Shown here: one piece after another, positions 14,309-26,177 of the stretch
How positions within the stretch are numbered: the first letter of the stretch is position 1
How the letters are laid out: the number at the start of each line of letters is the position of its first letter
NCBI GenBank assembly: GCA_003347645.1
Contig: QDFX01000008.1
Span: 62,001-126,000, forward strand
Reading direction: 5' to 3'
Length of the DNA: 64,000 nt
Source of the DNA: Rhizobiaceae bacterium CPCC 101076
GTDB taxonomy: Bacteria > Pseudomonadota > Alphaproteobacteria > Rhizobiales > Methylopilaceae
The notes under the pieces: generated by a model
Told to the model about the DNA's origin: nothing
Seen by the model: only the letters and a program-made list of their open reading frames with translations
Database searches by the model: none
Translations under genes and position numbers: made by a program

Positions 14309-15076
14309 GTGGACCTGCCCATCAATCACTTCAAGCGTGCCATCATGGCCGGCGAGCAGCAGATCGGACTCTGGAGCAGCCTCGCCAGCAACATCACGAC
14401 CGAAGTGTTGGCGGGCGCCGGTTTCGACTGGCTGCTGATCGATGCCGAACACGCGCCGAATGATCTCCGGACGGTGCTGGGCCAGCTTCAGGCGGTGATG
14501 GAATATCCGAAGACGCAGGCGATCGTCCGTATCCCCTCCAACGACAAGATCGAGATCAAGCGCTATCTCGATGCGGGTGTCCTGAGCTTCCTCGTGCCGA
14601 TGGTGGAAACGGCGGACGAGGCCCGGCAGGCGGTAGCAGCAACGCGCTTTCCACCGGACGGCATTCGTGGGTTCGCCGGTGTATCACGCTCGTCGCGGTT
14701 CGGCCGGATCAAGAACTACCACAGCCGGGCCCACGAGGAGATCTGCATTCTGGTCCAGGTCGAGAGCGAACTGGGCATCCAGAATCTCGAGGACATCGCA
14801 GCGGTACCGGGCGTCGACGGCGTCTTCATCGGGCCCGGAGATCTGTCGGCGGCATTGGGGCATCTCGGCGATCAGGGCCATCCGGACATGGTCGCCCTCA
14901 TCGAGAAGTCCATCCACCGGATCGTCGCCGCCGGTAACCGGCCAGGCATCCTGACCGGGGATGAGAGCCTTGCCCGCCGCTACATGGCGGCCGGCTGCAT
15001 CTATACGGCCGTCGGGCTCGACACGGGCATTCTGGCACGTGGTGCCGAGGCGCTGGCGAGGAAGTTCAAGGGCTGA
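14309..15076 (+). CDS. HpcH/HpaI-family aldolase
   Basis: The 255-residue class II (metal-dependent) aldolase has the HpaI pattern. DAEHAPND carries the catalytic His, IVRIP the substrate Arg, and the metal ligands are Glu in VQVESELG and Asp in GPGDLS. Relatives cleave 4-hydroxy-2-oxoheptanedioate or 2-dehydro-3-deoxy-glucarate to pyruvate (or oxaloacetate) and an aldehyde. The start is GTG at 14309, preceded by GAAAGGA. It follows tctA by 39 bases in the same direction, so the imported acid, or a hydroxy-oxo acid made from it, is probably cleaved here. The exact substrate is not readable. Confidence 0.9.
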   Translation: MDLPINHFKRAIMAGEQQIGLWSSLASNITTEVLAGAGFDWLLIDAEHAPNDLRTVLGQLQAVMEYPKTQAIVRIPSNDKIEIKRYLDAGVLSFLVPMVETADEARQAVAATRFPPDGIRGFAGVSRSSRFGRIKNYHSRAHEEICILVQVESELGIQNLEDIAAVPGVDGVFIGPGDLSAALGHLGDQGHPDMVALIEKSIHRIVAAGNRPGILTGDESLARRYMAAGCIYTAVGLDTGILARGAEALARKFKG

Positions 15077-15142: not shown

Positions 15143-15715
15143 TCATTCCAAGTCGAACGTCGCGGCCTCCAGGGCGCGGCGGAGGCGCCAGCGATCGACG
15201 AAGCGCGGTCTGCGAAATATTCCCAAGGTCCCGACGCTCTCCTGCCAGCGCAGGAAGGGCAGGGCGCCGTGATAGGTCGGCCGGTTCCAGAAGTCATGCG
15301 CCATGATGACCGTGCCCGGCCGCGACTTCAGGACTGAGGTCAGCAGGCAGGCAAGGCGAAAACGGCCGTCGACGAAGATGAGATCGGGGTCGGGCTCCGT
15401 CGGCCAGGGAGCCTGAGCGTAAAGGGGCCAGTTGCTGCGTTGCGAGTCGTCTCTGGGCCGCCCCCATTTCCCGATCGGACCGATATCCACGTGGATGAGA
15501 CGCAGGCTGCCGGATGTTTCGGCGGCTTCGATGACCGCGTGGGAGCGCATCTTTCCGAGCCATTCCGGATCGGATTCGACCGCGCAGATTTTCGCTGAAG
15601 TCTCGGTGACGCCGAAATACGTGCTGCCCCCCGCGCCGAATTCGACGACGCGTTTGGCCTGCCTGTAATGGCGGGAGAAAGCGGTGAATTCCTCGTCGCT
15701 CAGTTCGGGCTTCAT
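15143..15715 (-). CDS. Class I SAM-methyltransferase-fold protein, function unknown
   Basis: The 190-residue protein begins at the Met of MKPELSDEEF. A longer open frame to 15838 would overlap the divergent cytochrome gene and has unlikely composition. Residues ~20-60 form a Rossmann motif I/II region (VVEFGAGGST, then AVESDPEW). Further on are DLIFVDGRFR and AHDFWNR, as in putative methyltransferases found in polysaccharide gene clusters. It is divergent from the cytochrome b561 gene, so it may be an outlying member of the 15.8-23.4 kb cluster. The fold is fairly clear; the activity is unproven. Confidence 0.68.
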   Translation of the reverse strand: MKPELSDEEFTAFSRHYRQAKRVVEFGAGGSTYFGVTETSAKICAVESDPEWLGKMRSHAVIEAAETSGSLRLIHVDIGPIGKWGRPRDDSQRSNWPLYAQAPWPTEPDPDLIFVDGRFRLACLLTSVLKSRPGTVIMAHDFWNRPTYHGALPFLRWQESVGTLGIFRRPRFVDRWRLRRALEAATFDLE

Positions 15716-15828
15716 TTCCAGGGTCGTAGCGCGCCGAGGAGCGGGCCGCAAACATCCGGACGCGCTCGCCTGTTGGTTCCGGCGCGGTCCCGCCTTACAA
15801 TCTTTCCAGGGAAACCGGAGCCTCGCTC

Positions 15829-16368
15829 GTGTCAGCACCGTCTTTCGATGTTCCGGGGCAGGCCTACCATCCCGCTCTGCGCGTCCTGCATTGGCTGACC
15901 GCGCTCTTCGTCTTCGTCGCCTTTCCGGTCGGCTTCGTCATCGATTACGTCAAGGACGAGTCGAAGACCGCCTTCTATCTCGTGCACGAATCCTTCGGCT
16001 TTCTGGTGCTGTGGGTGATGCTCACGCGTGTCGTCGTGCGATGGATATGGCCGCCACCGCCGAATGCCGAGATCAATCCGAGCCTTCATCTGGTCGCCAC
16101 ACTCGTCCACGGCGCGCTTTATGCGGCGCTGATTCTGCAGCCGGTGTTCGGGTTCCTAGCGACCAATGCCTTCGGCTTTCCGTTCAGCCTGTTCGGCGTG
16201 CTGCCGATTCCAAGTCCGATCGGCAAGGACCCGGCGCTCGCGCGCTATCTGATGGGCGCGCACATCTTCATCGGATATTCGATCCTCGTCCTATTCTGCC
16301 TGCACATCGGCGGCGTGCTCTATCATCAGGTCATCAGGCGCGACGCGATAGTGCAGCGGATGCTGTGA
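15829..16368 (+). CDS. Cytochrome b561
   Basis: The 179-residue protein has four membrane helices and the haem-binding histidines of bacterial b561: RVLHWLTALF in helix 1, LVHESFGFL in helix 2, VHGALYAAL in helix 3 and LHIGGVLYH in helix 4. These proteins shuttle electrons between quinol and periplasmic acceptors such as superoxide. The start is GTG (GTGTCAGCACCG). Its stop overlaps the GTG start of the dehydrogenase gene (GTGA at 16365-16368), so it is translationally coupled to the cluster downstream and may supply or drain its electrons. Confidence 0.9.
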   Translation: MSAPSFDVPGQAYHPALRVLHWLTALFVFVAFPVGFVIDYVKDESKTAFYLVHESFGFLVLWVMLTRVVVRWIWPPPPNAEINPSLHLVATLVHGALYAALILQPVFGFLATNAFGFPFSLFGVLPIPSPIGKDPALARYLMGAHIFIGYSILVLFCLHIGGVLYHQVIRRDAIVQRML

Positions 16369-17336
16369 CTTTCGTGCGTGCGACGGCGCTCTGGATGACG
16401 GGGCCGGGAACGGTGGAGCTGCGTTCGGCCGAGGTTCCGACGCCGGAAGCCGACGAGGTTCTGGTGCGAGTGCTCTATTCCGGCGTCAGCCGAGGCACCG
16501 AAAGTCTAGTGTTCGCGGGGCGGGTGCCGGCGAGCGAGCACCAGCGCATGCGGGCGCCGTTCCAGGAAGGCGAGTTCGGTTTTCCGGTGAAGTACGGCTA
16601 TTCGAGTGTCGGCGTCGTCGAGAACGGACCCGCTGAGCTTATCGGCCGGGTCATATTCTGCCTCCATCCGCACCAAGATCGCTGCATCGTTCCTGCCGCC
16701 GCCGTCGTACCTATCCCTGAAAACGTGCCGGAGGGCAGGGCGGTGCTGGCGGCGAATATGGAGACTGCGCTCAACGTGATTTGGGACGCCGACGTCAGCG
16801 CAGGCGATAGCGTCGCAGTCGTTGGTTGCGGCGTCGTCGGTGCTCTGGCCGCGCATCTGGCAAAACGTGAAGGCGCCGAAGTCACAATCGTCGACGTGAA
16901 TACCGACCGTGAGCGCATCGCCTCGGCGCTCGATTGCGCATTTGCCGTGCCCGAAGAGGCCCCGCGCGATTGCGATATTGTCGTTCACACCAGCGCGACG
17001 GCTGCTGGCCTTGCAACCGCTCTCGATTGTGGTGCGTTCGAGGGGACGATCATCGAGGCGAGCTGGTATGGCGACCAGCTCGTTCCCGTGCCGCTCGGCG
17101 GGGCGTTCCACAGCAGGCGGCTGAAGCTGATTTCGTCCCAGGTCGGGCATCTGCCGCCGGAAAAGCGCGCCGAGTGGACACATCGGCGCCGGATGGAGCT
17201 CGCCCTCTCTCTCCTGGCCGACGAGAGGCTCGATGTATTGATCTCCGGCGAGACCGATTTCGCGAACGCCGCGACCGACTATCCGGCTCGCCTCGGCGAC
17301 CCCAACACCCTTTGTCACCGCTTCCGCTATTTCTGA
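16365..17336 (+). CDS. Medium-chain dehydrogenase of the BchC-like type, zinc ligands missing
   Basis: The 323-residue protein has the medium-chain dehydrogenase fold with a Rossmann motif (VAVVGCGVVGALAAHL, about residue 145) and VDVN at the end of strand 2. The N-terminal region reads YSGVSRGTESLVFAG, matching the branch of 2-desacetyl-2-hydroxyethyl bacteriochlorophyllide dehydrogenase (BchC). The catalytic-zinc Cys of alcohol dehydrogenases is replaced, and the four structural-zinc cysteines are absent, so the usual database name 'zinc-binding' is doubtful. No bacteriochlorophyll gene is nearby. The start GTG overlaps the previous stop. In this context it probably oxidises or reduces an alcohol on the cluster's product. 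Confidence 0.85.
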   Translation: MTFVRATALWMTGPGTVELRSAEVPTPEADEVLVRVLYSGVSRGTESLVFAGRVPASEHQRMRAPFQEGEFGFPVKYGYSSVGVVENGPAELIGRVIFCLHPHQDRCIVPAAAVVPIPENVPEGRAVLAANMETALNVIWDADVSAGDSVAVVGCGVVGALAAHLAKREGAEVTIVDVNTDRERIASALDCAFAVPEEAPRDCDIVVHTSATAAGLATALDCGAFEGTIIEASWYGDQLVPVPLGGAFHSRRLKLISSQVGHLPPEKRAEWTHRRRMELALSLLADERLDVLISGETDFANAATDYPARLGDPNTLCHRFRYF

Positions 17337-17342
17337 GGATCC

Positions 17343-17738
17343 ATGTTCGCCGTCGAAGTTCGCGACCACATCATGATCGCCCATTCGCTGCCGTCACCCG
17401 TCTTCGGCCCGGCTCAGGGGCTGCACGGCGCGACCTATGTCGTCGACGCGGCGTTCTTCACGGAGGATCTCGATGACGACGGGCTGGTCGTCGATATCGG
17501 CCTTGCGACAACGGCTTTGGCGGACGTCCTCGACCTCTACCGTTACAAGAACCTCGACGAGATCGCCGACTTCGAAGGGCGCATCACCACGACGGAGTTC
17601 ATGGCGAAGGTCGTTTCCGATGCGCTGAAAGCGAAGATCGTGGCGGGAGAACTCGGGCCGGTGGGACGCATCAAAAAGCTTCGCGTGATGCTGCACGAGA
17701 GCCATGCCGCACGGGCCTGGTTCGAGACCGATTTGTGA
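17343..17738 (+). CDS. 6-pyruvoyl-tetrahydropterin synthase/QueD homologue with degenerate active site
   Basis: The 131-residue protein has the length and order of motifs of the PTPS/QueD family: FAVEVRDHIMIAHSLP, LHGATYVVDAAF, LVVDIG, TTTEFMA and VMLHES. Of the three zinc histidines, the first (His14) and second (His28) are present, but the third, in the usual HGH, is Ala30. The catalytic Cys ahead of HGH is missing (FGPAQGLHG), and the Asp-His pair of the relay is not seen. Glu119, which binds the pterin ring in the family, is kept. It starts 6 bases after the dehydrogenase and its stop overlaps the glycosyltransferase start. It may bind a pterin or pyrimidine without normal lyase chemistry. 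Confidence 0.82.
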   Translation: MFAVEVRDHIMIAHSLPSPVFGPAQGLHGATYVVDAAFFTEDLDDDGLVVDIGLATTALADVLDLYRYKNLDEIADFEGRITTTEFMAKVVSDALKAKIVAGELGPVGRIKKLRVMLHESHAARAWFETDL

Positions 17739-18769
17739 GGCGGCTGACCTTCGTCTTTCCCGGAGATTTGGCCCGGCCGACCGGCGGCTATGGCTATGAC
17801 CGGCGGATCATCGCGGAGCTCAGGGACATGGGCTGGACGGTCGAGACCTTGTCTCTCATCGGTGCGTATCCGTTTCCAACCGATCGGGAGCGAGCGGCGG
17901 CGGCCGAGGCCTTCGCCGCCATCCCGGATCGCTCGCTCGTCGTGGTCGACGGCTTGGCTTTCGCTGTCCTGCCTGAAATTGCCCGGACCCATGCGAGGCG
18001 GCTCGGGCTCGTAGGCCTCGTTCATCATCCGTTGTCGCATGAGTCCGGTCTGAATACGGCGGCGATCCGGACTTTGCACGAGAGCGAGCGCGAGGCCCTG
18101 GCTTGCGCAAGGGCAGTCATCGTGACCGCGCCAAAAACATCGAAGCTTGTCGTCGAGGAATTCGGCGTCGACGCCGGCGTAGTCACCGTCGCGGAACCCG
18201 GCACCGACCGCTTCGGACATGCCCTTGGCCGCGGCGATCCACCGGTTCTGCTCACCCTTGGCTCGCTGATCGAGCGAAAGGGGCATGACGTCCTGATCGA
18301 CGCGCTGAAACGATTGACGGATCTGCCGTGGCGCGCGCGATTTGTCGGCGAGGCGTCAGACCCGGAATGGGCCGCGATGTTGCGGGAACGCGCCGCAGGC
18401 CTCGGCGAACGCGTCACTTTCGCCGGCCCAACGGACAATGCGCATCACGAACTGCTCGGCGCCGACATCTTCGTTCTGCCGTCCCGTTATGAAGGCTACG
18501 GCATGGCCTTCACCGAGGCGCTTGCTTGCGGTTTGCCGGTGGTCGGCTGTCCGGTCGGCGTACTGCCGGACGTGTTGCGCGACGGCTCGGGGACGATGGT
18601 TCCGGTCGGCGATGTCGACGCGCTCGAGCGCGCTCTGCGCGACCTGTTGAGCGATCCGAAGCGCCGGGCGGAAACTGCCAGGGCGGCCGCGCGGGCGGGC
18701 AGCCTGTTGCCGGTCTGGGCGGAAACGGCGCATCGCTTCGGGGCCGCGCTGGAACGGGTCGCGCCGTGA
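17735..18769 (+). CDS. Family 4 glycosyltransferase
   Basis: The 344-residue GT-B enzyme begins with RRLTFVFPGDLARPTGGYGYDRRI, the N-terminal acceptor domain. Its C-terminal nucleotide-sugar domain has GSLIERKGHDVLIDAL (about residue 170), DIFVLPSRYEGYGMAFTEAL with the E-x7-E type motif, and PVGVLPDVL. It transfers a sugar from an NDP-sugar to an unknown acceptor with retention. The GTG start overlaps the PTPS-like stop (GTGA at 17735-17738), and its own stop overlaps the methyltransferase start in the same way. The four genes are thus tightly coupled. Confidence 0.93.
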   Translation: MRRLTFVFPGDLARPTGGYGYDRRIIAELRDMGWTVETLSLIGAYPFPTDRERAAAAEAFAAIPDRSLVVVDGLAFAVLPEIARTHARRLGLVGLVHHPLSHESGLNTAAIRTLHESEREALACARAVIVTAPKTSKLVVEEFGVDAGVVTVAEPGTDRFGHALGRGDPPVLLTLGSLIERKGHDVLIDALKRLTDLPWRARFVGEASDPEWAAMLRERAAGLGERVTFAGPTDNAHHELLGADIFVLPSRYEGYGMAFTEALACGLPVVGCPVGVLPDVLRDGSGTMVPVGDVDALERALRDLLSDPKRRAETARAAARAGSLLPVWAETAHRFGAALERVAP

Positions 18770-19533
18770 GCGGCTTCGATCCAGCGTGGCTCGATCTGAG
18801 ATCCGGCGCCGACGAGGCCGCCCGCGACGGAGACCTGCTGACGAAAGCGGTCGCTTTCGCAAGTGCCTTGCCGAGCCCGCTGATAGTCGATCTGGGGGCG
18901 GGGACGGGTGCGAGCACGCGGGTTCTGGCGCCACATCTGCCCTCGGCGCGTTGGCGGCTGGTCGATGGTGACAAGGAGCTCCTCAGGATAGCGGCGCAGC
19001 GTTGCCCCGATGCCGAGATTGTCCCTCTGGACCTCGCCTCATCGCCTCTCCCGATCCGGGATGCGCGTCTAGTAACCGCGTCGGCCCTGCTCGATCTCGT
19101 TTCCGCCCAGTGGATAGAGCGGCTCGTCAGAGATGTCGTCTCCGGGGGTGCGGCGTTCTATGGCGTTCTCAGTTTCGACGGTCTGATGAGCTGGTCTCCG
19201 GAGCATCCACTCGATGAGGATGTGCGGAGAGCCTTCAATCGTCATCAGCGCTCGGACAAGGGATTCGGCCTTTCCCTCGGCGGCGATGCGGTCGTCTATG
19301 CACGCGAATGCTTCGCCAATGCCGGATACGCCATCGAGATGACGGAGAGTCCGTGGCGGCTAGGTCCCCGCGACATGATGCTCAAGCGCCAGCTCATCAA
19401 GGGAATTGCGTCGGCGGCTGAGGAGGCGGGGCAGGCGGGGACGGCGGAGTGGTCCGTATTTCGTCTCGACCATCTGGCGACCGGCTCCTGCCGGATCGGC
19501 CATCAGGATCTGTTCGCTTCGCCCGCTTCGTGA
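18766..19533 (+). CDS. Class I SAM-dependent methyltransferase
   Basis: The 255-residue protein has motif I LIVDLGAGTGASTRVL (about residue 40), WRLVDGD for motif II, and DARLVTASALLDLV for motif IV. It therefore has the standard SAM-binding fold. Its GTG start overlaps the glycosyltransferase stop by four bases. The last 31 bases overlap the end of the convergent RibD-type gene. With a sugar transferase immediately upstream, it probably methylates the sugar or the heterocycle of the same product; the target atom cannot be told from the sequence. Confidence 0.88.
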   Translation: MSGFDPAWLDLRSGADEAARDGDLLTKAVAFASALPSPLIVDLGAGTGASTRVLAPHLPSARWRLVDGDKELLRIAAQRCPDAEIVPLDLASSPLPIRDARLVTASALLDLVSAQWIERLVRDVVSGGAAFYGVLSFDGLMSWSPEHPLDEDVRRAFNRHQRSDKGFGLSLGGDAVVYARECFANAGYAIEMTESPWRLGPRDMMLKRQLIKGIASAAEEAGQAGTAEWSVFRLDHLATGSCRIGHQDLFASPAS

Positions 19534-20273
19534 TGGTGGAACGCGCAGTCGATGACGATCTCGCCGCCGAGATCGTAGAAGGTGGTTCGCGGACGCAGGC
19601 AGTCGCGCAGGTGAGGCACCGGCGGCAGAGCGAGCCCTGACGGGCCGTCGCCGATGATCAGTGGCGACAGCGTGATGAGCAGGCGATTCATCGCGCCGGC
19701 AAGCAGGAACGGTCCGAGTGTCCGCGCTCCTCCCTCGACAAGCACTCGGGTCAGGCCTCTTTCCGCAAGGGCGGCCAGAATCGCCACGGGATCGATCGTG
19801 CCGTTGGCGGCATCGAGCCTGATGACATCGATCCCCTCCGGCCGTTTCGCATCGCAGGACTGGATGGTGATTCGCCTGGTCCCGTCGTCGGCGAAGACGC
19901 GGGCGGTGTCCGGAACGCGTCCGTGCGGATCGACGATCACGCGGACCGGGTGCGCGCCCTCGACCTCGCGCACCGTCAGCCGAGGATCGTCGTGGAGCAC
20001 TGTGCCCGCGCCGACGATCACCGCATCCGACAGCGCGCGCAGGCGGTGGAGGTGCTGCATCCCGGCTTTGCCCGAGACATTGCGGGCATCGCCAGAGGAC
20101 GTGGCGACGCGGCCGTCGAGCGACTGGCCGACCTGGCCGACGACGAAGCTTTCCTCCTTCGAGGCGGAGGCAAGTGGCCAGTAGAGCGGCAGAACATCCG
20201 TCTCAAGATCGCGAAGAGCGGCGATCTCGTAGGCCGTCGAAATATCAGCGTCGGGAGCGAGGTGGCGATTCAT
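19503..20273 (-). CDS. Stand-alone RibD-type (DHFR-fold) reductase
   Basis: The 256-residue protein matches the reductase half of RibD. VGQVGQSLDGRVAT is near the start of the domain (about residue 50), followed by SDAVIVGAGTVLHDDPRLTV, VEGGARTLGPFLLAG and LSPLIIGDG. The deaminase half is absent. RibD reductases use NADPH to reduce the ribose of a 5-amino-6-ribosylaminopyrimidinone, and relatives reduce other carbonyl or pterin-like substrates. The start at 20273 has GAGG five bases upstream; a longer frame to 20354 would overlap the sulfatase-fold gene. It lies last in a minus-strand operon. No other riboflavin gene is near, so a role apart from riboflavin is plausible. Confidence 0.87.
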   Translation of the reverse strand: MNRHLAPDADISTAYEIAALRDLETDVLPLYWPLASASKEESFVVGQVGQSLDGRVATSSGDARNVSGKAGMQHLHRLRALSDAVIVGAGTVLHDDPRLTVREVEGAHPVRVIVDPHGRVPDTARVFADDGTRRITIQSCDAKRPEGIDVIRLDAANGTIDPVAILAALAERGLTRVLVEGGARTLGPFLLAGAMNRLLITLSPLIIGDGPSGLALPPVPHLRDCLRPRTTFYDLGGEIVIDCAFHHHEAGEANRS

Positions 20274-20280
20274 GCGCGCC

Positions 20281-21885
20281 TCAACTTGATCCGGAACCGG
20301 AGAACGCGGCCACAAATCTCTTCCGGAACTCTTCCATCGGCCATGCCTCGACATTCAAGCTGGGGCGCATGCCGTTTGTCCATCTCCAGCCGTCAATTCT
20401 GGCCAATGTCGATGGGTTCCCCGCGATGATATGAACGGGCACGGAATGCCCGACATCTTTTCCGGCCACCCAGGGGATCGGCTGATGGTCACCGACGACG
20501 ATTACGACGGTGCGCTCATTGCCATAGCGCTCGATCCATGAGGAGAGCGTGGCGAGCACGTATTCGATTGAGCGGAGGTAATGGTCTCGCACCTGATCCG
20601 GACTGCGCCAGACCGTGTCCGGCGGTTCACCCGCATCGACCTGAGCGTTGAAGATGGTGCCGTCGCCGATCTTCTCCCACTCAACGAGTGAGGGTAGCGG
20701 TGCCCACGGAATGTGGCTCGACAGCAGTGTGATCTGCGCCATGACAGGCCCATCGCCCTTCAGCCGCTCGAAGCTTTCGAGCGTGAACTGGTCGGGCATG
20801 GTGACCCAGTCGAAGCTCTTGCCGCGATAGCCCAAATCCTTCGCCGCCATCACGCGGTCGAAGCCGAACCATTGGCCCTCCGGCCAGGGCATGGTGATCC
20901 CCGGCATGACGGCTTCGGTGGTCCAGCCGGCCCGCTTGAAGTCCTTCACCAGTGTGCCGTGGGTGCCCCGGACGAGCGCCTGATAGCGGCGCTGATTGTC
21001 GATCCGCAGGCCTGAAAGAAGGGTCGAATGGGCGAGCCAGCTCTGGCCGCCGAGCGTGGTGGAGGTCAGGAAGCCCGAGCGTGCGACCATGTGCTTGCGG
21101 GCGAGCGCCTCGTCGAACTTTGCGAGAGCCGTTTCGGTGCGTGCCTTGAAGGCCGGATCGGTGAGGAGCGTACCGCCATAGGATTCGAAGAAGACGACAT
21201 ATACGTCGTTGCCGGCTAGCGCCGTGAGGAGGTCGGCGGGAAGCTCTTCCGTTATCGGGTCTGATGTCGCCTCCCGGTGAAATGCGTCGAGGTCGACGGC
21301 GCTCTGCTGCGCCCGGGTGACCTGGCTGATCAGCAGGTTCGACGCATTTGCGGTGACGCCGGGCGTGTCGAGAACGAAGCCCGCAATGGAGATCGCCGAG
21401 AACGCCGCGAGCGCGATCCGCTGGGGGCCGGGTATTTGCGCGAAACGCCCCAGCATTCGCAGCGATATCCAGATCAGGAAGAGCAGGCCGAACAGCGCAT
21501 TGATCAGCGCGATGATGCCGAGAACGGCCAGGACGTTGCCGAGCGTGCCGCTCATCAGATTGCGGACGGCGCCGAGCAGATCGAGATCTAGGACGAGATC
21601 GAACGGACGGCCTGACGCGAAATACATCCCGGCATTGGCGAGCTTGGCGACGAGCAACAGAAACAGCGCGATTGTCGTCAGGCTGCGGATGACCGCACCC
21701 ATCGCGCCACCGACGAGCAGGAGCAACAGCAGGAGGACGGGCAGTTCTACCGGTACGCGGGCGAAGGACGCCGCCTTCATTGCCTCCAGCCTGTCCGGCG
21801 CGACGAGCAAAGCCCAGACGAACAGAAGCGCGAACAACACACCGATGATGCGCGGCCGAGAGAGGGCAGCGGTCGGCTCTGTCAT
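20281..21885 (-). CDS. LTA-synthase-like membrane enzyme (alkaline phosphatase/sulfatase fold)
   Basis: The 534-residue protein has about five N-terminal membrane helices (residues 10-175) and a C-terminal sulfatase-fold domain outside the membrane. Fold motifs seen are VYVVFFESYGG (metal-binding Glu), GGQSWLAHSTLLSG around the expected Ser/Thr nucleophile, SHIPW, and VVGDHQPIPW with the Asp-His metal pair. Relatives transfer glycerophosphate or phosphoethanolamine from phospholipids to glycans, or cleave sulfate esters. It lies seven bases upstream of the RibD-type gene and overlaps the FkbM gene by four bases. With a CDP-alcohol phosphatidyltransferase in the same operon, a phospho-group transferase is more likely than a sulfatase. 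Confidence 0.85.
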   Translation of the reverse strand: MTEPTAALSRPRIIGVLFALLFVWALLVAPDRLEAMKAASFARVPVELPVLLLLLLLVGGAMGAVIRSLTTIALFLLLVAKLANAGMYFASGRPFDLVLDLDLLGAVRNLMSGTLGNVLAVLGIIALINALFGLLFLIWISLRMLGRFAQIPGPQRIALAAFSAISIAGFVLDTPGVTANASNLLISQVTRAQQSAVDLDAFHREATSDPITEELPADLLTALAGNDVYVVFFESYGGTLLTDPAFKARTETALAKFDEALARKHMVARSGFLTSTTLGGQSWLAHSTLLSGLRIDNQRRYQALVRGTHGTLVKDFKRAGWTTEAVMPGITMPWPEGQWFGFDRVMAAKDLGYRGKSFDWVTMPDQFTLESFERLKGDGPVMAQITLLSSHIPWAPLPSLVEWEKIGDGTIFNAQVDAGEPPDTVWRSPDQVRDHYLRSIEYVLATLSSWIERYGNERTVVIVVGDHQPIPWVAGKDVGHSVPVHIIAGNPSTLARIDGWRWTNGMRPSLNVEAWPMEEFRKRFVAAFSGSGSS

Positions 21886-22622
21886 GCTACGAGCCGTGCG
21901 TAGATGTCACCGGAGGAGCGGCTGCTTCTCAGCAATTTCAGGTGCTCGATCATCGTGGCCGCTGGCACCCAATTCCTGGAAGCAAACGTGAAACTCTCGC
22001 CGCGCACGCGATTGAAGCGATAGTCGCCTAGTTGCGCGATGAGGTTCACGCAGGTCTCGGCACGGTCGAGAACAGCGGGAAGGTACTCGAAGGCGATGCA
22101 TGGGATCGGCCGGCTCAGTCCGCGCAGAACGTCTGCCTCGAAGCCCTCGACGTCGATCTTGCAGAAGCGCGGCAGGCCGTGTTCCGCAATCATCGCATCG
22201 AGCGTTGTGACCTTGACGCGGTGCGTGCCGTCCCAATTGACCGCGCCGAAACCGGGATCTGTTCTGACGCCATCGATCCAGTCCGCGGACAACGTCGAGA
22301 CGGTCGGGTGTCGTGACGAGATGTGCAGGTTCGCCTCCCCCGCCTGGGCGCCGACTGCATAGTCGCGAAGGATGACGTTCGCGGGCTGGGTCTTTGTCAA
22401 GAAACGAAAGAACAAAGGCTGCGGCTCGACCGCGACGACGTGCGCCCCGAGTTTGCTGAATACGCGCGAGCGGCTGCCGACATGCGCGCCGATGTCGAAG
22501 ACGAGGTCGCCGGGTCTGATCATGGCGCTATAAAAACGGCGCGCCGCACGCGTCTTCCAAGGCCGGCCGTAATAGATCGCGATCGAGCGGGCGAGGCCGA
22601 GGGTTTCGTTCAGGCTCGCCAT
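21882..22622 (-). CDS. FkbM family methyltransferase
   Basis: The 246-residue protein shows the FkbM pattern. LVFDIGAHVGSRSRVFSKLGAHVVAVEP (motif I and II, residues ~38-66) is followed by VTTLDAMIAEHGLPRFCKIDVEGFEADVL, the family's diagnostic C-terminal block. Such enzymes O-methylate sugars or other hydroxyls. The ATG at 22622 overlaps the stop of the CDP-alcohol phosphatidyltransferase (TGATG). A much longer frame upstream is the shadow of that gene. Confidence 0.9.
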   Translation of the reverse strand: MASLNETLGLARSIAIYYGRPWKTRAARRFYSAMIRPGDLVFDIGAHVGSRSRVFSKLGAHVVAVEPQPLFFRFLTKTQPANVILRDYAVGAQAGEANLHISSRHPTVSTLSADWIDGVRTDPGFGAVNWDGTHRVKVTTLDAMIAEHGLPRFCKIDVEGFEADVLRGLSRPIPCIAFEYLPAVLDRAETCVNLIAQLGDYRFNRVRGESFTFASRNWVPAATMIEHLKLLRSSRSSGDIYARLVA

Positions 22623-23356
22623 CAGAGGGCGGGCGCGGTCCTGCGCAATAGCCAGGCCGTGTCGATCGCGAATGACAGGACAAGAGCGCCCAGGGTGATC
22701 GCCCCGATCGCGTTCGCGAGGGGCGGTTCCAGCAGAAGCATGACGATCAGCGCACACACCTGCATGACGCAGACTGCTTTGCGGCGGAAGGATGGAAAGA
22801 GCGGCGCGGTGAGCGCGGGCCATACAATGCCGGCGATGACGAAGGCATAGCGAAGGAGACCGGCGGCGAGAATCCACGCGCCTGCTTTGCCAAGCACAAG
22901 GCAGAGCACGGACAGCACCAGAATCAGGAAGGCATCGACTTCCATGTCGAAGCGTGCCCCGAATTCCGAAATTGTATTCGAACGCCGGGCGATCCAGCCG
23001 TCCAGTCCGTCCGTGGCGAGCGCGAACGCGGCAATCGCCACGGGCAGGATGCCTGCGGCGGGTTCGGTCACGATCGAGAATTGCACCGAGAGGCCGGCGA
23101 GTACACTGGTGAGGATGGCTCTAAACAAGGTGATCGCGTTTGCGAGACCGAGGGGAAGCCCGAGCGGGATGGCGAGGCTGACCGCGATTCCCACGCCGAC
23201 GAAGACGAACAGGCTGACCAGAAGCCCGTGAACAGCGAGGCCAGATAAGAGACCCAGCAGAGGGGTGGCCAATGCTCCGATAGTGAGCGCGGCTCCGGTG
23301 GACAGGCCGAGACTGCTCGGCTCGCTCGCAACGGTCATGGACTCAGGAACACCCAT
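22622..23356 (-). CDS. CDP-alcohol phosphatidyltransferase
   Basis: The ~244-residue membrane protein has six or more hydrophobic helices and the complete catalytic signature D-G-x2-A-R-x8-G-x3-D-x3-D, visible from DGLDGWIARR to DMEVDAF. It joins a CDP-activated lipid to an alcohol, or uses another CDP-alcohol. It is the first gene of a four-gene minus-strand operon ending with the RibD-type reductase. The start could be 23356 (MGVPES) or 23338 (MTVASE); neither has a strong ribosome binding site, and an open frame continues to 23500. The lipid product is unknown. Confidence 0.88.
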   Translation of the reverse strand: MGVPESMTVASEPSSLGLSTGAALTIGALATPLLGLLSGLAVHGLLVSLFVFVGVGIAVSLAIPLGLPLGLANAITLFRAILTSVLAGLSVQFSIVTEPAAGILPVAIAAFALATDGLDGWIARRSNTISEFGARFDMEVDAFLILVLSVLCLVLGKAGAWILAAGLLRYAFVIAGIVWPALTAPLFPSFRRKAVCVMQVCALIVMLLLEPPLANAIGAITLGALVLSFAIDTAWLLRRTAPAL

Positions 23357-23549: not shown

Positions 23550-26177
23550 TCAGGCGCCGCGAGCGACGGGTTCCGCTTTCGGCTCGGCTTCCGGCTTCTT
23601 GCGCGGCTCGCCCATCAGGGCCGGCTGGAACAGAAGCGCCGAGGCGAGAGTGCAGGCGAAGGAGAGCGCCAGCAGCTTGCCCATGCTCGACGTGCCGGGA
23701 TGGACCGAGAACCACAGGCTACCGAAGGCGACGGCGGTCAGGAGCGCGCTGAAGAACACCGCGCGGGTCAGCGTCGATTGCAGGAAGTCGGTCTGACCGC
23801 GCTGCCAGGCGACGATGTAGTAGATCTTGAACGCCACGCCGACGCCGAGCAGCACCGGCAGCGCGATGATGTTGGCGTAGTTCAGGGCGAAGCCCGTCAG
23901 GCCGCAGATCTCGAACGTCATCAACGCCGCAACGATGAGAGGCACGAGCGTCGCGGCGACATCCTTGATGCTCCGCAGAACGATCCAGAGCAGGATGGCG
24001 ATGCCGAGCAGAGCGAGACCCGACGCCTGGGCGAAGGCGGTAATGATCGCGCGGCCCCAGTTCAGCGTATCGACGGCAGGACCGGTCGCGCGCGAATCGA
24101 TCTTCTCGATGGCGCGCGCGAAGTTCAGCAGCGTGTCGTTGTCGTTCGGGTCGCCCTTGGGCAGGATATCGACGCGGTAGCGGCCGTCCGGCGTCACCCA
24201 ATCCTGCGCGATGACCTTCGGCACCGAATTGGCATCGACAGGCCCCGCCGTCAGGAGCAGGCGCAGGTCGTCCATATTCTGCTGCAACGGCACGAGCACG
24301 GCCTCGCCAGCCTTGTCCCGATGGTCCTCGTCGGCGGTGGCGAGATTGCGCAGATTGCCGGCCAGCCTTTTGGCGGCCTCGGCACCAGGGCCGGTCCGGC
24401 CATTGGCCGCGCTGCTAAGCTCGTCGGCGCCCTTGCTCAGCGCGGCGATGTTTTCCTGATCGCTCGGTGCGGGCTGTTTCGGCCCGTTGATGGACTGATC
24501 GAGGACTTGCGCGGCGTTCTGGATGTAGTCGAGCTTCTTCGCCTGATCCTGCATCGGGACGAGCGTGTCGAGCGTGCGCGTGGACGCGACCTCAGGTACT
24601 TCCTTCAGCCGCGCCGCGAGGGCGATCGACTCGTCGTGATCCTTTGCGAGAATCTGGGCGCTCTGCGCGCCGACCGCCGGGTCCTTGCTGAGTTCGACGA
24701 AGGTCTTCACCGCTTCCGAATTCGGATCGCGCAGGTGCAACGGGTTGAAGTCGAACTGCAGCTTCATCAGCGCCGGAGCCCCGGCCAGCACGATCAGCGA
24801 GGTGAGCGTCACGACCCAGAGGCGGTGGCGCTTCAGGAAGTTGTCGACGGGGATCAGGAAGGGCTGGGTCAGCGAATGCGGCTCTTCCGGCGGACGGACG
24901 CCCTTGAACAGGGCCGGAAGCAGGACGAGGCTGGCGACATACGCCACGATCATGCCGCCGCCCGCGATGATGCCGAGCTGGGCGAGACCGGCATAGGCGG
25001 TCGGCATGAAGGACAGGAAGCCGATCGCCGCCGCGACGGCAGCCAAAGTCAGGGGTGCGCCGATCTTGCCGGCGGTCGCGACCAGAGCGTTCCGGGTGTT
25101 CTTCAACTCGTGCCGGTTCTCGCGGTACTGCATCCCGAATTGGATAGCGAAGTCCGCGCCGATGCCGACGAACAGGACGGCGAAGGCGATCGAGATCGGG
25201 TTGAAAGCGCCGACCATGGCGATGCCGAGCGCGGCGGTGATGATGAGGCCGACACCGAGCGTCAGGCAAACTGCGAAAACGAGGCGGAAGGAGCGGAGCG
25301 CCAGCCAGAGGATGATCACGACGAGCGCACCGGTGATCGCGCCGTTGACCGCCGCGCCATCATTGACGCTCGAGAATTCCTCGTCGGTGATCGGTACCGT
25401 GCCGGTCAGGCGGACATCGGCGTGATATTTCCCGGCGAGGTCGAGGTCACTGATCGCCTTCCGGACAGCACCCGTCGCCTTCGCGCCCGGTGTCAGCGAA
25501 CCCAGATCGAGCTTGGCGGTGAGAAGCAGGATGCGGCGCAGTCCGTTCGGCTGGCCTTCCTGCTGCGGCAGCAGGCGCTTCCACGAGAAAGTCGGGAAGC
25601 CGTTGGACGCCGTGGTCTCGATGGTGTCCGATGCCGAGTTGAGCAGTGGCGCCATGCCGTCGAGCGTGACATCGCCGCCGTCAATGCCGTCGAGACCCTT
25701 ACGAAGAGCTTCCATCAGCCCACGAATGCTGGGATCGGTCGCGAACGTGCCCAGCAGCGGCTCGGCGTCCATCATGTTGTTGGTGGTGTCGCGGACCTTC
25801 TCGGTGGGCAGGAAGAGAAGGCCGTTCTTGCGGAAATAAGCGTCGCCCTGGGCATCCTCGACGGCGGTGAAATGGTCGGTCTGCTTCGACAGGTCGTCGA
25901 CCAAAGCGGAAGTTGCCGCACTGGTCAGCTCGGCGGTCGGCGCTTGGACGACGACGATGATCTGGCGCGGCCGCTGCGGAAACGCCTTCTGATAGGCGAG
26001 CTGTTCCTTGCGCCAGGGCAGCTCGGCCGAGAGCAGGTCGTTGATGTTGGTGTTGATGCGGAAATGATGCGCTGCGTAGAAGCCGCAGCCGCCAGCGATC
26101 AGGAGCGCGGCCAGGATCACGAGCGTAACCCGGCCGGTGAAGACCTCGACGGCGCGGGCAATGAAGCGATTCAGCAT
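23550..26177 (-). CDS. hpnN: Hopanoid-associated RND/MmpL exporter HpnN
   Basis: The 875-residue protein is an MmpL-type RND permease. It has one N-terminal helix (residues 15-35), a large periplasmic loop, helices 2-6 (about 270-430, with FVGIGADFAIQFGMQYRENR), a helix at ~455, a second periplasmic loop with many Ala and Gln, and helices from ~720 (GVGVAFKIYYIVAWQRG) to ~860. The size and the GADF/GVAF loops fit HpnN, which moves hopanoids to the outer membrane in Rhodopseudomonas and Burkholderia. No other hopanoid gene is in the window. A Lys/Glu/Ala-rich tail closes the protein. The ATG at 26177 is the natural start. Confidence 0.85.
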   Translation of the reverse strand: MLNRFIARAVEVFTGRVTLVILAALLIAGGCGFYAAHHFRINTNINDLLSAELPWRKEQLAYQKAFPQRPRQIIVVVQAPTAELTSAATSALVDDLSKQTDHFTAVEDAQGDAYFRKNGLLFLPTEKVRDTTNNMMDAEPLLGTFATDPSIRGLMEALRKGLDGIDGGDVTLDGMAPLLNSASDTIETTASNGFPTFSWKRLLPQQEGQPNGLRRILLLTAKLDLGSLTPGAKATGAVRKAISDLDLAGKYHADVRLTGTVPITDEEFSSVNDGAAVNGAITGALVVIILWLALRSFRLVFAVCLTLGVGLIITAALGIAMVGAFNPISIAFAVLFVGIGADFAIQFGMQYRENRHELKNTRNALVATAGKIGAPLTLAAVAAAIGFLSFMPTAYAGLAQLGIIAGGGMIVAYVASLVLLPALFKGVRPPEEPHSLTQPFLIPVDNFLKRHRLWVVTLTSLIVLAGAPALMKLQFDFNPLHLRDPNSEAVKTFVELSKDPAVGAQSAQILAKDHDESIALAARLKEVPEVASTRTLDTLVPMQDQAKKLDYIQNAAQVLDQSINGPKQPAPSDQENIAALSKGADELSSAANGRTGPGAEAAKRLAGNLRNLATADEDHRDKAGEAVLVPLQQNMDDLRLLLTAGPVDANSVPKVIAQDWVTPDGRYRVDILPKGDPNDNDTLLNFARAIEKIDSRATGPAVDTLNWGRAIITAFAQASGLALLGIAILLWIVLRSIKDVAATLVPLIVAALMTFEICGLTGFALNYANIIALPVLLGVGVAFKIYYIVAWQRGQTDFLQSTLTRAVFFSALLTAVAFGSLWFSVHPGTSSMGKLLALSFACTLASALLFQPALMGEPRKKPEAEPKAEPVARGA

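Follow-up and report, generated by a model that had tools for sequence, protein, structure and literature searches.

This report concerns a locus of nine genes in a 64,000-nucleotide stretch of DNA (the window, by which we mean that whole stretch), taken from positions 62001-126000 of one contig (QDFX01000008.1) of Rhizobiaceae bacterium CPCC 101076, whose genome is 3.7 Mb long and 98.86% complete. The gene set probably uses GTP as the source of a small molecule, which may then be attached to a lipid of the membrane or a sugar of the envelope. It consists of two convergent runs, the plus run holding b561, a dehydrogenase, a homologue of 6-pyruvoyltetrahydropterin synthase (PTPS), a family 4 glycosyltransferase (GT4) and a methyltransferase (MT), and the minus run holding a CDP-alcohol phosphatidyltransferase (CDP-OH), FkbM, a sulfatase-fold gene and RibD. 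The genes are listed below with their coordinates in the window, strand, product and supporting match.

15829..16368, plus strand: cytochrome b561-family membrane protein (b561), possible redox partner; PF01292, 3.2e-25
16365..17336, plus strand: BchC-like dehydrogenase of the MDR (medium-chain dehydrogenase/reductase) family without the zinc Cys; nearest BchC, 70.1 bits
17343..17738, plus strand: PTPS homologue, SCO6650 type; PF01242, 7.9e-20
17735..18769, plus strand: GT4 glycosyltransferase; PF00534, 1.9e-33
18766..19533, plus strand: class I S-adenosylmethionine-dependent methyltransferase (MT); PF13649, 6.4e-8
19503..20354, minus strand, start more likely ATG 20273: single-domain RibD-type reductase; PF01872, 2.3e-39
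20281..21885, minus strand: sulfatase-superfamily membrane enzyme, possible phospho-group transferase; PF00884, 5.2e-8
21882..22622, minus strand, start ATG 22622: FkbM-family methyltransferase; PF05050, 1.9e-15, and TIGR01444 above its cut-off
22622..23356, minus strand: CDP-alcohol phosphatidyltransferase (CDP-OH); PF01066, 4.7e-18

An earlier reading of these letters (the sequence-only reading) had placed nine genes of these families here, which the Pfam and NCBIfam matches bear out, and its account of the plus-side junctions agrees with the sequence: three 4-base overlaps (b561/dehydrogenase, PTPS/GT4 and GT4/MT) and one 6-base gap (dehydrogenase/PTPS). The minus run is equally tight, CDP-OH and FkbM sharing one base (if ATG 22622 is the FkbM start), FkbM and the sulfatase-fold gene overlapping by 4, and the sulfatase-fold gene being separated from RibD by 7 bases (if ATG 20273 is the RibD start); on this reading RibD closes the lipid-side run. 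MT and RibD run into each other at their 3' ends, where they overlap by 31 bases.

The set of genes is real, and it is conserved. A sample of 199 genomes of the host order, searched with the PTPS homologue alone, gave a match in 57 (host included), of which 3 were weak only (33-35% identity) and 54 held a real relative (48-100% identical; that of G083 is a piece of 55 residues). A collection of named genomes held at least 321 related stretches, from which the best 80 were taken, so that by either measure the locus is common. Gene content was compared over 54 order loci (53 genomes, host omitted), 80 named loci and 12 plasmid loci (of 20 plasmid matches), with up to 10 kb fetched on each side; 11 of the 54 order loci and 15 of the 80 named loci are incomplete at their edges. 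Genes were counted with profiles on six-frame reading frames, most of the profiles being built from the named loci, which therefore score high by construction. The most constant part of the locus is the dehydrogenase-PTPS-GT4-MT core, with the dehydrogenase in 53/54 order and 79/80 named loci, GT4 in 52/54 and 64/80, and MT in 48/54 and 79/80. RibD follows with 28/54 and 74/80, then b561 (25/54 and 43/80), GTP cyclohydrolase II (GCHII; 21/54 and 51/80), FkbM (21/54 and 48/80), CDP-OH (5/54 and 53/80) and the sulfatase-fold gene (3/54 and 52/80). When the 111 loci found by PTPS alone (two of them the window itself, and 29 no longer than 3.4 kb) were searched by tblastn, the dehydrogenase was matched in 109, MT in 107, GT4 in 95, RibD in 76, CDP-OH in 54, the sulfatase-fold gene in 52, FkbM in 48 and b561 in 47, and the flanking control genes at 14309, 15143, 23553 (HpnN) and 26422 in 0/111. 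At the level of whole genomes, a dehydrogenase at or above 44% identity occurs in 54/54 PTPS-positive genomes vs 1/145 others (Fisher p 2.6e-48, uncorrected for kinship), the next-best matches lying at 33-36% identity. The sequence-only reading was to be abandoned if orthologues of these genes proved scattered among related species; because the neighbourhood is conserved, that outcome did not arise.

The one PTPS-negative genome with such a dehydrogenase, G111, carries a fragment of it overlapping a RibD fragment, with OpgH adjoining (L203, 7656-11265); this appears to be a leftover of the locus. Named carriers, among the best 80 of at least 321 stretches, include Rhizobium, Agrobacterium, Paracoccus, Roseovarius, Palleronia, Fulvimarina and Arenibaculum, and the locus also occurs in other alphaproteobacterial orders, in gammaproteobacteria and in some Actinomycetota. 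On plasmids, the dehydrogenase lies beside PTPS in 9 of the 12 loci, including those of Methylosinus, the gammaproteobacterium Thiodictyon, two Streptomyces, Microbacterium and Arthrobacter. On three Streptomyces plasmids (L123, L125 and L126) a lone PTPS homologue sits among cupin, MBL-fold and regulator genes, and because it stands alone there, it may act outside the locus too. EcfG, the sigma factor of the general stress response, was considered as a regulator and rejected: the promoter pattern, which we take to be that of EcfG, was seen near the dehydrogenase start in 1/142 loci vs about 2 expected (background 0.014 per 700 bases).

The PTPS homologue is the sole PTPS-family gene of the host genome. 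Among solved structures it has one relative at E 0.01, SCO6650 (3d7j), with residues 1-129 of 131 aligned at E 2.7e-37, so that the kinship extends over the whole protein; SCO6650 reportedly has no zinc and no PTPS activity. In an alignment of 147 relatives at 80 bits or more, the HGH motif reads HGA in 147/147 and the position of the catalytic Cys is Ala in 147/147, whereas the first zinc His is retained in 147/147 and the pterin-anchor Glu in all 145 that have a letter there, these residues presumably having the roles that their names imply. The homologue belongs with QueD and the other COG0720 subfamilies to the T-fold family but differs from them in HGA and Ala. Its relatives are mostly annotated as 6-carboxytetrahydropterin synthase, and the central protein of the locus is accordingly given the name of a queuosine enzyme as a matter of routine, though it scores 34.7 bits vs the NCBI equivalog cut-off of 89.25 for QueD, and the CxxxHGH motif, the mark of QueD in a review (PMC5041015), is absent from all 147 relatives. 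The same review names PTPS-I to VI and terms the function of PTPS-V unclear (PMC5041015).

The dehydrogenase had been called BchC-like, and BchC is indeed its nearest family; its 70.1 bits, on the other hand, lie far below the BchC equivalog cut-off of 291.25. Moreover, Ser stands for Cys in all 140 relatives that have a letter at what we take to be the catalytic-zinc position.

Several genes of the locus point toward a ring derived from GTP. In the RibD protein only the RibD_C domain was matched, the deaminase domain being absent, and the scores fall under the cut-offs of both TIGR01508 (109.1 vs 186.45) and TIGR00326 (107.3 vs 156.35). It is therefore not a bifunctional RibD of riboflavin synthesis, with which it shares the reductase domain but not the deaminase; the solved structures closest to it (2azn and 6p8c) are archaeal-type pyrimidine reductases, likewise of a single domain. 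A second RibD_C match in the host genome lies in a 417-residue frame. Within the order sample GCHII never occurs in a locus without RibD (21 with both, 7 with RibD only, 26 with neither), and in G106 and G070 the GCHII and RibD_C genes are about 1 kb apart and more than 50 kb away from PTPS. GCHII was counted at 100 bits, which takes in the enzymes of L167, L173 and L178, several kb away and probably ordinary, and the divergent ones of L156 and L158. The three zinc Cys are present in 76/76 locus GCHII, and the switch position is Tyr, as in active enzymes, in 72, Met in 2 and Leu in 2. The Met-type enzymes are those of the Streptomyces loci L119 and L124, each of which has a creatininase neighbour matched at 573 and 331 bits, respectively; the 573 bits of L119 are a self-match because its own protein served to build the creatininase profile. 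GCHII SCO6655 reportedly stops at a formylated product on account of its Met in place of Tyr. Both GCHII types would fit one common diamino pyrimidine intermediate, formed directly or via the formyl form and a deformylase, the latter route being suggested by two Met cases.

The sequence-only reading had suggested looking for GCHII or creatininase-like genes beside the locus, and both expectations held in part. GCHII does lie beside 21/54 order and 51/80 named loci, but none with a zinc site was found in the host genome, which has RibD yet (G000:C12:246970 and C17:33368; L112 and L113) only GCHII-related proteins of other kinds. Creatininase accompanies both Streptomyces copies that have GCHII, but was rejected as a general alphaproteobacterial partner, being found in 2/54 order loci (weakly, at 70 and 84 bits) and 0/80 named loci.

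On the envelope side lies CDP-OH, which scores 66.5 vs 22 bits for its family and in which the residues of what we take to be the catalytic motif of CDP-alcohol transferases are invariant in 5/5 aligned loci from two phyla; no equivalog model reached its cut-off for this protein. One subfamily is common to the window, Peteryoungia, Thiodictyon, Microbacterium and Streptomyces, at 39-48% identity to the window's protein. With 14 candidates scored per genome and a seventeenth, weak match (G164) dropped, a strong match was found in 16 order genomes, 10 PTPS-positive and 6 PTPS-negative (Fisher p 0.002, uncorrected for kinship). As an obligatory part of the system CDP-OH was rejected, the gene not being found among the candidates scored in 44/54 PTPS-positive genomes. 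For the sulfatase-fold protein, the name LTA-synthase-like of the sequence-only reading has the Pfam Sulfatase match (5.2e-8) as its basis, and a profile of two sequences found no solved chain, LtaS included, at E 0.001. Related loci also carry, next to the core, a glucosyltransferase of the MdoH/OpgH family, in at least 36/54 order and at least 11/80 named loci (lower bounds, since the counts rest on clustering), mostly divergent from the dehydrogenase and in more than one order and more than one orientation. This recalls the OpgH/MdoH system of periplasmic glucans, but the window's locus has no such enzyme, and the host's best MdoH relative lies on a different contig at 37% identity.

The substrates of MshA-type and PimB enzymes are inositol phosphate or glycans of phosphatidylinositol. 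Tll1590 (6kih, 6.3e-36) is the closest match of the GT4 profile, followed by 3c4q (6.3e-32), D-inositol 3-phosphate glycosyltransferase (7qsg, 1.2e-30) and PimB (3okc, 1.4e-23). It shares the GT4 fold with UDP-glucose:tetrahydrobiopterin glucosyltransferase (5zer), but that match is weaker (3.6e-12), covers profile residues 169-333 and leaves the acceptor half outside, so that GT4 cannot be counted as a tetrahydrobiopterin glucosyltransferase and stands closer to MshA and PimB.

With adjacency defined as same-strand stop-to-stop frames less than 150 bases apart, heterocycle and envelope genes adjoin on one strand in 35/147 loci, which span alpha- and gammaproteobacteria and Actinomycetota. The joining junctions are GCHII-CDPOH in 25, RibD with the sulfatase-fold gene or CDPOH in 5 (the window's RibD/sulfatase-fold junction included) and MT-LPG-TM (the LPG-synthase-TM gene) in 5, one of the last also having CDPOH-dehydrogenase. 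Loci of the opposite kind exist as well. Four genomes of one family of the order (L193, L194, L197 and L198) hold CDP-OH, sulfatase-fold, LPG-synthase-TM, FkbM and OpgH together; the 16-20 kb read there contain no gene of the heterocycle module, and the genomes have no PTPS relative or close dehydrogenase; b561 is present in 3/4, GT4 in 2/4 and an exo/endonuclease/phosphatase-family gene in 3/4. The other two PTPS-negative CDP-OH loci (L195 and L196) have CDP-OH and the sulfatase-fold gene only. The modules are separable, since envelope-only loci exist and CDP-OH was not found in most PTPS-positive genomes, and any lipid link would be optional across species. The role that the sequence-only reading gave to the minus side, that of making or modifying a lipid or phosphate link, is favored by the same-strand adjacency but weakened by this separability.

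The locus as a whole is best explained, at a probability of roughly 0.45, as a conserved system of two cooperating modules, one for a GTP-derived heterocycle and one for the envelope, whose product would be a ribityl-pyrimidine or pterin unit that is methylated, glycosylated and possibly linked to a lipid or glycan. The two-module structure is plain from gene content, and cooperation is our best reading of it. In its favor are the conserved neighborhood, the co-occurrence of PTPS and dehydrogenase, the retained anchor Glu, the kinship of RibD, the company of GCHII and RibD, the pairing of Met-type GCHII with creatininase, the shared CDP-OH subfamily and the adjacency in 35/147 loci. Several observations pull the other way. 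CDP-OH was not found in 44/54 PTPS-positive genomes (among the 14 candidates scored in each), and the four envelope-only genomes just described have the envelope genes on their own. Of the 35 joined loci, 25 share the single junction GCHII-CDPOH, and these cases are not independent because nearly all are rhizobial; the MT-LPG-TM junction of L124 is doubtful, its frame overrunning the neighbor by 1353 bases. In the host genome a RibBA, whose GCHII half is without the zinc Cys, and a URC1-like protein (names that we presume to be right for the two) were found instead of a zinc-site GCHII. The nearest relatives (G095, G155 and G058) are without RibD or GCHII in the locus, so that their ring would come from housekeeping enzymes, and the GCHII search gave in their genomes matches of the host's two score classes. 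In L141 and L179 the GCHII is of the Tyr type and is accompanied by a creatininase match, a weak one. Finally, 3/12 plasmid loci, all from Streptomyces, and L155, a second copy in G167, carry the PTPS homologue without the other genes.

Much of this would suit a different division of labor, in which the product of the heterocycle module is pterin-like, soluble, glycosylated and methylated, and the adjoining envelope module serves glycolipids or periplasmic glucans as a system of its own. That the dehydrogenase-PTPS-GT4-MT core is the most constant part, that it was found without CDP-OH in 44/54 genomes and that envelope genes occur without PTPS in L193, L194, L197 and L198 all speak for such independence; the joining of the modules through several kinds of junction (GCHII-CDPOH, RibD-sulfatase-fold, RibD-CDPOH, MT-LPG-TM and CDPOH-dehydrogenase) and the presence of GT4 in 2/4 envelope-only loci speak against it, and we regard it as rather unlikely. 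It is improbable that all of the locus serves an envelope glycolipid, with relatives of PTPS and RibD recruited for work on other substrates, such as a sugar or polyol, and no pterin or pyrimidine made. The loss of the PTPS catalytic motif in 147/147 relatives, the closeness of the GT4 profile to MshA and PimB and the failure to find a GCHII in the host genome would agree with this, but the three zinc Cys in 76/76 locus GCHII (a few of which are probably ordinary riboflavin enzymes) and the pterin-anchor Glu retained in 145/145 speak against it, and the Met-type GCHII with creatininase in Streptomyces, in the role presumed for it, fits a pyrimidine route. Ordinary queuosine or riboflavin genes in a misleading neighborhood could be invoked from the annotation of the PTPS homologue and from the families of RibD and GCHII, which are those of riboflavin synthesis. 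Yet the low QueD score, the missing QueD motif, the RibD models under their cut-offs and the other RibD_C match in the host genome all oppose this; both the queuosine and the plain riboflavin readings were rejected on motif, scores and neighborhood, and we consider them highly improbable.

Under the two-module reading, we infer the following steps, in this order, from the families of the genes. GCHII, present in the locus of many relatives and not found in the host, would open GTP to 2,5-diamino-6-(5-phosphoribosylamino)pyrimidin-4-one, whose ribosyl group the single-domain RibD would reduce to a ribityl chain. The PTPS homologue, being of the SCO6650 type, would bind the ring, pyrimidine or pterin, but carry out neither the PTPS nor the QueD reaction, and the dehydrogenase without zinc and the methyltransferase would tailor the ring or its side chain. 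GT4 would glycosylate a polyol or sugar. Where the envelope module is present, the CDP-alcohol transferase may couple the polyol to a CDP-lipid, and the sulfatase-fold enzyme and FkbM (elsewhere also LPG-synthase-TM or OpgH) may alter the product at the membrane, transport it or lengthen it; b561 may take part as a redox partner. A bolder version, which we think doubtful, has two or more bacterial phyla making a phospholipid of the membrane, or a glycan of the periplasm, with a ribityl-pyrimidine or pterin as its head group. This group, derived from GTP, methylated and glycosylated, would be a cofactor held in place for redox work or light absorption, with the neighboring b561 serving it. If the lipid or glycan link is true, it would represent a new kind of envelope molecule and give a role to the orphan PTPS homologues of the SCO6650 type.

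This kind of locus has reportedly been noticed earlier in Streptomyces. The plasmid loci L119 and L124, which hold dehydrogenase, PTPS, GT4, MT, CDP-OH, LPG-TM, creatininase and GCHII, resemble the S. coelicolor SCO6650/SCO6655 locus in what we take to be its gene content. Most alphaproteobacterial loci, in contrast, are without creatininase and have Tyr-type GCHII; sulfatase-fold, FkbM, b561 and OpgH partners are a further difference. To what is presumably known from Streptomyces our analysis adds a variant free of creatininase, the partners for lipid and OpgH functions, and the division into two modules. A text search of the literature, covering titles and the starts of abstracts with subscription journals mostly outside its coverage and hence weak, recognized no account of the product. 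In two papers, SCO6655 is given as a GTP cyclohydrolase II (PMC2853524), and SCO6652, which falls within the numbers SCO6650-6655 and may belong to the locus, has log2 values of 0.8, 4.3 and 4.1 at 24, 48 and 72 h vs first mycelium (PMC3610822).

In the surroundings of the locus, a search of window positions 8000-30000 gave no riboswitch or other known RNA family at gathering score. A 231-residue frame on the minus strand (15143-15838), with no Pfam or NCBIfam match, overlaps the start of b561 by 10 bases. At the other end, about 200 bases from the CDP-OH gene, lies the gene for the hopanoid transporter HpnN (23553-26177, minus strand), which scores 1100.9 bits vs a cut-off of 1100.

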